From Verrucomicrobiota bacterium (GTDB lineage Bacteria; Verrucomicrobiota; Verrucomicrobiia; Chthoniobacterales; UBA10450), in contig VBQC01000177.1 of assembly GCA_005887825.1 (NCBI GenBank), positions 1-32,922 of the forward strand: DNA of 32,922 bases, written 5' to 3'. Within the stretch, counting starts at the first letter, position 1. Each line of letters opens with the position of its first letter. Shown piece by piece: positions 26,853 through 29,704 of the stretch. The notes below the pieces were generated by a model, which saw only the letters and a program-made list of their open reading frames with translations, made no database searches and was not told where the DNA came from. The position numbers were made by a program, and so were the translations under genes.

Positions 26853-26997
26853 TGTAGCCGCTTAGTTGTGCGAAGCGAAGGTGGATTAAGCAGCCCCTTG
26901 CTCGATGTTAAATTAGCGGCGAAGCCGCATTTATTTGGCATCGGCCGCGGAGCGGTCGATCCACTTGGCTACAACTAGCGCGAGAGCGCCCGCTACA
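26853..26997. repeat. Intergenic structured element with TGTAGCCG...CCCGCTACA ends
   Basis: Internal agcggcgaagccgc and gcgcgagagcgc dyads; ends resemble 796-877. Confidence 0.5.
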
Positions 26998-27460
26998 CCT
27001 TTTGCGAGCGATCGCGAAAGATCGACAAAATCTCGTCGGCCGAATTCGCCTCGGCCAGGCTCTCACGGACGCTGCGATCATTCAAAAATTTGGCGATCGA
27101 TGCAAGCGTGCGCAGGTGCGTCTGAAATTGATTTTTGGGCACAATGAAAAGAACAACGAACTTCACCGGTGCGTTGTCCAGCGCATCGAATTCAATTCCG
27201 CCGGGGGATCTTCCAAATGCGGCCACGACTTCGTCGAGGCGGTCAGAGGAGCAGTGCGGAATGGCGATTCCGAATCCGATGCCAGTGCTCATGGTTTCCT
27301 CGCGCTGTTTGAGCGAAGCCAGAATGCTGTCGCGGTCTGCGGGTTTGACTTTACCCAGGTTGACCAGCAGATCGATCAATTCGACGATGGCCGGCCAACG
27401 CTCAGTTGCCTTCATCTCCGGAACGATTTGCTCGGCAGAAAGTAGATTGGCCAAGGACAT
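26993..27460 (-). CDS. PTS EIIA component (PtsN / fructose type)
   Basis: EETMSTGIGFGIAIPHCSSDRLDEVVAAFGRSPGGIEFDALDNAPVKFVVLFIVP; phospho-His context IPH. Confidence 0.88.
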   Translation of the reverse strand: MSLANLLSAEQIVPEMKATERWPAIVELIDLLVNLGKVKPADRDSILASLKQREETMSTGIGFGIAIPHCSSDRLDEVVAAFGRSPGGIEFDALDNAPVKFVVLFIVPKNQFQTHLRTLASIAKFLNDRSVRESLAEANSADEILSIFRDRSQKV

Positions 27461-27505
27461 GATTTCCCTTTGTACGGGAGCGCAAGCTTAGCGGGAGCGC
27501 TTGGG

Positions 27506-27544
27506 TTGACAAGTCCGTTTTGGGATAGCGGATCAAGAACGGAC
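27506..27544. promoter_or_regulatory. Candidate regulatory dyad in divergent promoter region
   Basis: TTGACA at 27506-27511 and inverted repeat GTCCGTT (27513-27519) / AACGGAC (27538-27544); no clear -10 box. Confidence 0.3.
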
Positions 27545-27603
27545 GTTGCGACATGCGCTTCGTTCTGCGAAGTTTGTGTCGAGTTAGCAAGGACCGGTGA
27601 ATT

Positions 27604-28953
27604 TTGAATCAATTTCGGCAAACGCCCCCACGTCAGGCAGAGGCTTTCGCAATCTATTTTTCCAACCCGTCTTTTCAGGCACTGAGTCCTGCCTTCAAGC
27701 GCAGACCCGTGGCATTACTTTGCCTGAAACCGCGCGCCATCAACGCCCTCAGTACCGCAGGCATTAGAACCATCGGGCAGTTGATAGACCGGGCTGAGCG
27801 CGGCATCGTATCGTTACGCGCTGCCGGCGTTCTGACGCGCAACGAGATCATCAGCGCCCTCGATGCTCTATCAAAGAGCATTCGGACCGACGATATCGAT
27901 TGGGTTGCTTACGCAAAGCACCGGGGATTTGTTATTCTTCCTGAAAAGCGGCGCGTGCATTGGTCGCCCCAAGCATTTCTGGAAGAACTGCCGCGCGTTG
28001 CCGCCGCGGTCGTAGGTTTGGAAGGCGGCGCAAAGGCCCTGGTAGTATTGCGCGAGCGATTGTTGTGTGCCGCCAGAAATGTCCTCACGCTAGAGAAAAC
28101 AGGAAGGCAGATTGGAACAACTCGAGAGTTCGTCAGGCAGCTGGAGAACGACATTACAGGAATGCTTCACGAAGTCTTTTGGCCCGACCAGCAGCTCTGG
28201 CACGGTGCAGGATCGCGGCGGCAGCCGTCCGATTATCGGCGCTGGGTCTGCCGCCGGAGCAGGTTCCAGTTGCGTCCGGAGTTTCTGCAACCGCTGCGGG
28301 AATTCGCCGCAGCACTCACATCTGAGGATAAGCGGCGTGCACTTTCTCCTCTCGATTGGGAACGCATTCTCAGAAAAGTCTGGGAAGTACGGCCCTATCA
28401 ATTGGAAGCGGCTGAAAACCTTATCCTTAATCTTCTTGGCTTGCGTCTGGCCAAACGGACAAAGACTATGTTCCTAGGAGCGCAAAAGAAGATCAACCGG
28501 CTTCTCGCTCACGACTATCCAGAAGGGCTTTCGCGGCGAGAACTTGCGACGATCCTCCGAAAGAAACTAGGCCCGATGGCGCCGACCATGGCTGAGTTGC
28601 CCGCGCTGGTTCGATTGGATCCTGCTCTAGAACTGTTCCACGGCCGCTATCGCTCCAGAGCGGGCGTTCTTTCACGGACCGCCGATCGATTCGAAAGAAT
28701 CCTCCGACGAGCGGGCAAGCCAATGCACTTTCGAAAGCTTGCTACCAGCCAGACTCTAGAAGGCGGAAGGACCACTGAACTGGCAGCCGTCGGCAAACTG
28801 TACAGGGACCCACGCTTTGTGCCGATTGCCAAGACTGGCCTTTGGGCAATGAAAGCTTGGAATTTGGACACTGGAAGTATCACGGAAATCGCAGCAGAAT
28901 TTTGGCGAAAAAACCACTGGACGAGGAAAAGCTCCCCCCGGCCATTGGCCTGA
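27604..28953 (+). CDS. Putative transcription-associated protein: alpha-CTD-like, sigma region 4-like HTH and C-terminal HARE-HTH-like segment
   Basis: LKPRAINALSTAGIRTIGQLIDRAERG..LTRNEIISALDAL (alpha-CTD-like); LRERLLCAARNVLTLEKTGRQIGTTREFVRQLENDI (sigma region 4-like); FERILRRAGKPMHFRKLA...DPRFVPIAKTGLWAMKAW. Start codon appears to be TTG at 27604. Confidence 0.72.
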   Translation: MNQFRQTPPRQAEAFAIYFSNPSFQALSPAFKRRPVALLCLKPRAINALSTAGIRTIGQLIDRAERGIVSLRAAGVLTRNEIISALDALSKSIRTDDIDWVAYAKHRGFVILPEKRRVHWSPQAFLEELPRVAAAVVGLEGGAKALVVLRERLLCAARNVLTLEKTGRQIGTTREFVRQLENDITGMLHEVFWPDQQLWHGAGSRRQPSDYRRWVCRRSRFQLRPEFLQPLREFAAALTSEDKRRALSPLDWERILRKVWEVRPYQLEAAENLILNLLGLRLAKRTKTMFLGAQKKINRLLAHDYPEGLSRRELATILRKKLGPMAPTMAELPALVRLDPALELFHGRYRSRAGVLSRTADRFERILRRAGKPMHFRKLATSQTLEGGRTTELAAVGKLYRDPRFVPIAKTGLWAMKAWNLDTGSITEIAAEFWRKNHWTRKSSPRPLA

Positions 28954-28966
28954 TCGGCTTTTGCCG

Positions 28967-29704
28967 CTAGCTGCCGCGAATTTTGTAGTTCAATCGCCGC
29001 GAGAGTAACCACCGCACGCCGAACATGTCGATGGTGGCGCGAAGGGCGCGATTGCCCAAGCCGTACTTACTTCGGCCGAAGCGACGCGGCCGATGATTTA
29101 CTGGAATTTCGACGAGCCGATACCCAGCACCCTTGATGAGTGCGGGAATGAAGCGGTGCATCCCTTTGAACGGAACCAGTGCGCTTACACATTCGCGCCG
29201 TATCGCTTTCAGTGTGCACCCTGTGTCGCGCACGCCATCTTTCGTGAAACGGCGGCGCACGGCGTTGGCGATCCAGCTCGTCAGCCGCTTCACTAGTGTG
29301 TCCTGGCGGTTAATCCGGTAGCCGCATACGAGATCGGCACCGCGCGCGATCTCCGCGAGAAGCCTCGGAATATCCGCGGGATCATTTTGCAAATCGCCAT
29401 CGATGAGGACCGCATTTGCGCCGCGCGCGGCTTGAAGTCCGGCATAAAGGGCGGCGCTTTGGCCCGTATTTTTTTCGAAACGAATCAGTCGAACATTGGG
29501 CGCAGTCTCAATCCGTTCGATTGTGCAATCGACCGATCCATCATCCACAAAAACGATTTCATAATCGAGTCCATCCAGCGCTGCGCGTAGTTCGGACTGT
29601 AAGATCGAGATGTTCTCTTCCTCGTTAAAAAGAGGCACTATCACGGAGACTGCCGGCGCGTTTGTCACCTCCGTCATAACGGGAGCGTGCGATAGTTTCG
29701 GCAA
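28967..29704 (-). CDS. GT2-family glycosyltransferase (DPM1/ArnC-like)
   Basis: VSVIVPLFNEEENI, EIVFVDDGSVDCT, LIDGDLQNDPADIPRLL, RDTGCTLKAIRRE. Confidence 0.9.
   Translation of the reverse strand: MPKLSHAPVMTEVTNAPAVSVIVPLFNEEENISILQSELRAALDGLDYEIVFVDDGSVDCTIERIETAPNVRLIRFEKNTGQSAALYAGLQAARGANAVLIDGDLQNDPADIPRLLAEIARGADLVCGYRINRQDTLVKRLTSWIANAVRRRFTKDGVRDTGCTLKAIRRECVSALVPFKGMHRFIPALIKGAGYRLVEIPVNHRPRRFGRSKYGLGNRALRATIDMFGVRWLLSRRLNYKIRGS

Follow-up and report, generated by a model that had tools for sequence, protein, structure and literature searches.

A Verrucomicrobiota protein joining alpha-CTD, sigma region 4 and winged-helix segments as a candidate DNA-binding accessory regulator

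What might a protein do that carries two promoter-recognition parts of RNA polymerase on one chain and has no sigma region 2? The question is raised by the product of a gene, here called P0001, in a 32,922-nucleotide stretch of DNA (the window) from a soil bacterium of the phylum Verrucomicrobiota. Its domain make-up, the homology of its alpha-CTD and sigma-4 unit in seven proteins, its DNA-contact residues and the lack of region 2 are established. We propose, at a probability of roughly 45%, that P0001 is a DNA-binding accessory regulator in which this unit is followed by winged helices.

Domain make-up of the protein

The open reading frame announced by the preliminary description is present with exactly the coordinates 27604-28953 (Table 1). 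The frame opens at a TTG codon, and this start is fixed because an in-frame TGA lies directly upstream, at 27598-27600. Homologues align with P0001 across 400+ residues at 30-37% identity, and the codon-position GC (0.62/0.48/0.58) is coding-like.

Table 1. Coordinates of the P0001 gene, its parts and its flanks in the window
Feature	Coordinates	Strand	Basis
PTS EIIA gene, left flank	26993-27460	-	Pfam; synteny
AAGGA ribosome-binding-like sequence, 10 nt 5' of TTG	27589-27593	+	direct reading
P0001 gene, 449-aa alpha-CTD / sigma-4 / winged-helix protein	27604-28953 (stop codon included)	+	ORF and homologues
Alpha-CTD (helix-hairpin-helix), residues 33-97	27700-27894	+	PF03118; residue comparison; model
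Family linker motif DIDWVAYAKHRGFVILP, residues 97-113, between alpha-CTD and sigma-4	27892-27942	+	alignment
Sigma region-4 HTH, residues 141-192	28024-28179	+	Pfam; phmmer; family profiles; residue comparison; model
~19-residue insertion, P0001 only	28189-28254	+	alignment; pLDDT <50 at 196-217
Helical continuation of shared module, D-Y-R-x-C-x-F-R-F-R signature, residues 220-284	28261-28455	+	alignment
First winged helix, residues 287-351, H-H-H-E-E modelled	28462-28656	+	AlphaFold model
HARE-like winged helix, residues 353-416	28660-28851	+	PF05066 under cut-off; LR76 counterpart
Short C-terminal tail, apparently truncated	28852-28953	+	alignment; other frames read
GT2 glycosyltransferase gene, right flank	28967-29704	-	Pfam; synteny

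The alpha-CTD that had been claimed at residues ~36-92 was recovered by Pfam PF03118 at residues 33-87 (E=4.7e-7; 29.9 bits against a gathering score of 23.8) and modelled confidently, so that both the above-threshold match and the helix-hairpin-helix fold that define an RNA polymerase alpha-CTD are found in P0001. R44, N47, G75 and E81 are the equivalents of E. coli alpha R265, N268, G296 and E302, with L at the K298 position and T at the S299 position. In the residue-by-residue comparison, which left out the Fuscovulum alpha-CTDs, the E261 equivalent is absent from all family members compared and the D259 equivalent from all modules but one. In E. coli, alpha E261 touches sigma.

Sigma-70 region 4, claimed at residues ~147-187, stays under the Pfam cut-off in P0001 alone (PF04545, E=0.025, residues 161-183), and the claim was borne out by family profiles together with the confident AlphaFold model, which place P0001 within this helix-turn-helix class. 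Searching PDB chains with phmmer returned alpha-CTD and RpoS/RpoD region 4, each at the same positions in P0001. R174, E175, R178 and Q179 are the equivalents of the sigma70 recognition-helix residues R584, E585, R588 and Q589, and the R603 equivalent is absent from P0001. Three short homologues have lost the R588/Q589 equivalents; -35-like specificity is therefore no rule across the family. As had also been claimed, sigma region 2 is missing, with no Pfam match at E up to 10. Because of this absence P0001 is unable to recognise a -10 element or to melt DNA like a sigma factor, and its identification as a sigma factor was rejected.

Both assignments were recovered from family profiles. A profile of P0001 and the three short homologues, thus excluding LR76, the homologue with the strongest sigma-4, matched the RpoA of its own genome (3e-9), E. 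coli RpoA (7e-8) and a sigma factor of its own genome (4e-4), with zero matches among 5000 shuffled sigma/alpha sequences. The five-member profile without the alpha-CTD, led by LR76, matched solved sigma-4 structures at 2.3e-6, and also matched sigma genes all over the phylum. Phylum-wide searches with the A2 and A3 profiles were dominated by rpoA and sigma genes and served only as reverse support. In the AlphaFold2 model, built from a five-sequence alignment, pLDDT is ~80-90 at residues 30-190 and ~64-89 at 222-352, falling below 50 in the HARE-like part. Alpha-CTD and sigma-4 structures were among the best Foldseek matches, with probabilities near 1 and weak E-values, as is usual when small domains sit in a long query.

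Between and beyond the two domains, the linker columns D99, W100, Y103, A104, R107, F109, I111 and P113 are invariant in the five-member alignment. The first winged helix has its counterpart at residues 373-438 of the LR76 model, in which four winged-helix patterns follow in succession beyond the module, matching winged-helix arrays such as SelB. The HARE-HTH claimed near 28669-28860 was upheld in part: PF05066 matches P0001 weakly (E=0.059 with the whole protein, 0.011 with a fragment) and the counterpart fragment of LR76 passes the cut-off (28.6 against 25.9 bits), but P0001 itself, at 14.2-16.5 bits, does not. Where P0001 has its short tail, the L002 and L003 homologues carry an extra winged-helix-like segment, ~45 C-terminal residues being missing from P0001; an alternative frame past an A run near 28909 gives a weak hint of a remnant, and a frameshift at that run is possible. 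Separately, the C-terminus of LR76 (L037, ~residues 760-878) holds R-N-E-R-G-H in a helical tail, like the HEPN R-x4-6-H motif; a HEPN domain was suspected there and discarded, with neither Pfam nor PDB support.

The family and its genomic settings

The module is common to seven proteins. Five of them, all from the order Chthoniobacterales (P0001, PNAA01000035, JACCZO010000397, JAICXG010000155 and LR76), have the same architecture, the unit running from the alpha-CTD through a DW-YA-RGF-ILP linker and sigma-4 to a DYR-F-RF helical stretch. The two further relatives, from genome G249 of the same class (L041) and from a plasmid of the alphaproteobacterium Fuscovulum ytuae (L076), carry the unit duplicated in tandem, the helical stretch being repeated with it. 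P0001 alone retrieves the G249 protein at 2e-9 and the Fuscovulum protein at 2.5e-13 in a test set of 5008 sequences. In the tree, where supports are mostly moderate, the a and b modules of these two proteins pair with one another, and the Chthoniobacterales proteins including P0001 form a separate, solitary group. Scanning the genome contigs with P0001 as a single protein gave zero matches, and scanning them with the alignment gave the four known homologues and nothing further; a search of the phylum with the G249 protein returned only itself. No P0001-type protein was found on a plasmid. A phage origin was considered and dismissed, P0001 having no matches in phages and the A2 alignment none in viral contigs; the viral-contig and phage-record matches obtained with other queries are ordinary sigma factors.

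Within the window, P0001 is surrounded by argS, PTS-IIA, glycosyltransferases and other ordinary chromosomal genes, with no defence gene among the Pfam-scanned neighbours. Among 35 genomes from the genus a single one carries the gene, while its two flanking genes, PTS-IIA and GT2, are each present in 33. The flanking genes directly adjoin each other in many sister genomes, with a gap of ~80-105 bp as compared with 1509 bp here. Given this single carriage, the close flanks in many sisters and the other inserts found elsewhere, the P0001 gene is a lineage-specific accessory insertion in a variable spot.

The spot itself (27461-28966; sister loci L119-L132) holds inserts of 490-910 bp in several sisters, which by eye are VapB/VapC-like in G072 and G059 and SIMPL-like in G051 and G076; reading frames that look TonB-like by eye also occur there in sister genomes. 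The promoter scan found no consensus sigma-70 promoter on the P0001 strand in the region upstream of the gene. A TTGACA on the + strand at 27506-27511 is kept in sister genomes, and in G054 and G061 TACAAT/TACAAC lies 18 bp after it, making a good sigma-70-like promoter directed at the insertion spot.

Two of the seven family members, in two phyla, belong to defence operons. In G249 the gene order is Mrr, GHKL ATPase, HNH, SNF2 helicase, EcoRII-N, family member, Dcm and Vsr, the family gene being flanked by the EcoRII-N protein and the C5 methyltransferase; the Fuscovulum operon holds Dcm, Vsr, GHKL ATPase, HNH, helicase, EcoRII-N and the family member, the last annotated as hypothetical. Both combine a GHKL ATPase with an SNF2-type/DEAD helicase, a nuclease and Dcm/Vsr, as a MORC-type operon does, a combination that the window genes scanned around P0001 lack, and both fit the MORC/GHKL class-2 restriction operons set out by Iyer, Abhiman and Aravind in 2008 (PMC2292703). 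The question whether such genes are accompanied by restriction or defence functions has two answers: these two distant members are, in MORC-type restriction-modification operons, and the P0001 gene and the Chthoniobacterales homologues with readable neighbourhoods are not. Since five similar MORC-like plasmid operons are without it, the family member is an optional part of such operons. The G249 contig, 12.4 kb long, is a Verrucomicrobiota contig with a MORC-type restriction-modification island that includes an Mrr-type endonuclease. On a palsa contig (L043:3529-5209), an XRE/ImmA-IrrE-like protein and a small partner gene, by eye resembling a toxin-antitoxin pair, lie ~4 kb from the homologue.

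A further defence protein, MzaA of MzaABCDE, is termed a sigma factor in PMC9523054. In almost all of the genomes searched, the PADLOC MzaA model (PDLC02203) matches RpoD-like housekeeping sigma factors across conserved sigma-factor regions (positions ~414-676; E to 1e-70), and MzaA calls from this model alone are unsafe because of these near-ubiquitous matches. P0001 was rejected as an MzaA, having no match to the model and no MzaBCDE neighbours among the window genes scanned.

What the protein may do

Binding of P0001 to promoter-like DNA is plausible, because both the alpha-CTD and the recognition helix of sigma-4 retain their DNA-contact residues. The alpha-CTD would bind the A/T-rich minor groove and the sigma-4 helix-turn-helix, on the same polypeptide, a -35-like major groove, by which P0001 would occupy UP/-35-type sites; alternatively it might settle on marked DNA, if its winged helices work as the HARE literature proposes. 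It would then repress or mark such sites without starting transcription itself. In MORC-type operons the duplicated unit would serve as a DNA-recognition or regulatory subunit, and P0001, as a solitary relative, probably retains DNA binding as a stand-alone regulator. Several observations count against the regulator reading: defence operons hold only two of the seven members, the closer relatives with readable surroundings have no adjacent defence gene, the R588/Q589 equivalents are gone from three short homologues, and this copy may be decaying.

Those two operons raise another explanation, namely that P0001 itself belongs to defence, as the subunit that recognises DNA or regulates in MORC/GHKL-type restriction systems, and that this solitary copy still acts on incoming foreign DNA, either by itself or together with partners encoded at other loci. 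Besides the gene company of the G249 and plasmid members and its likeness to the operons of PMC2292703, this is favoured by the operon GHKL protein, which matches PADLOC MzaB at 1e-46, and by the P0001 alpha-CTD, which matches an alpha-CTD-like stretch of BREX PglW at 1.9e-6, PglW models of both NCBIfam and PADLOC matching this part. With ordinary genes around P0001, five comparable plasmid operons that do without the family member and a tree that groups P0001 with the solitary Chthoniobacterales proteins, we consider this role somewhat unlikely. The sigma-4 fold might instead serve to bind RNA polymerase at the beta flap, making P0001 an anti-sigma-like competitor or a co-activator that mimics a polymerase part; the confident model of that fold agrees with this, as does structure 3n97, which by its title has alpha-CTD and sigma-4 together on UP/-35 DNA, but the widespread loss of E261 and D259 and the missing R603 equivalent make it unlikely.

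Decay of this copy is possible, its last winged helix being absent and the copy being the sole one found in the genus. That it is a decaying insert devoid of function, as the shortened C-terminus, the possible frameshift and the lone occurrence might suggest, is quite unlikely in view of the 449 open codons, conserved domain residues and coding-like codon-position GC. A bolder version of the DNA-binding proposal is a long shot: the covalent unit would be a promoter reader binding the composite UP/-35 site of the holoenzyme, in MORC-type systems directing the GHKL/helicase/nuclease machinery to the promoters of incoming DNA or silencing them, with winged helices that check modification and solitary versions that have become domesticated silencers.

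Novelty and comparison with known systems

The individual domains are known. No description of an alpha-CTD/sigma-4 fusion family, of the duplicated unit or of its placement in MORC operons turned up in the library searched; the 2012 HARE-HTH survey of Aravind and Iyer could mention such a fusion. Should the unit bind promoter-like DNA, bacteria would have reused two polymerase pieces that recognise promoters, joined in a single polypeptide, as a portable DNA reader that works apart from the initiation of transcription. An optional, still unnamed subunit of MORC operons would then also gain a testable role, in recognising foreign DNA by its promoters or in silencing it.

P0001 has in common with the CTD of the alpha subunit (PF03118) the helix-hairpin-helix and the equivalents of R265, N268, G296 and E302, but it has no alpha N-terminal domain and no equivalents of the sigma-contact residues D259/E261, and is joined to sigma-4. 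With sigma-70 region 4 (PF04545) it shares the helix-turn-helix bearing the R584/E585/R588/Q589 equivalents, whereas region 2 is lacking and region 4 is under the Pfam cut-off in P0001 alone. HARE-HTH proteins (PF05066) have winged-helix segments as P0001 does, and the LR76 fragment exceeds their cut-off; the P0001 segment is under it and badly modelled. BREX PglW is a large kinase, and its likeness to P0001 is limited to the alpha-CTD-like stretch. MzaA, from a GHKL-containing defence system, resembles the family in its sigma-like helix-turn-helix, but its model fits housekeeping sigma factors and leaves P0001 unmatched. As for the MORC/GHKL class-2 operons, the P0001 gene lies outside any of them and an alpha-CTD/sigma-4 gene is absent from their description in the part of PMC2292703 considered here, whereas two family members are encoded inside such operons.
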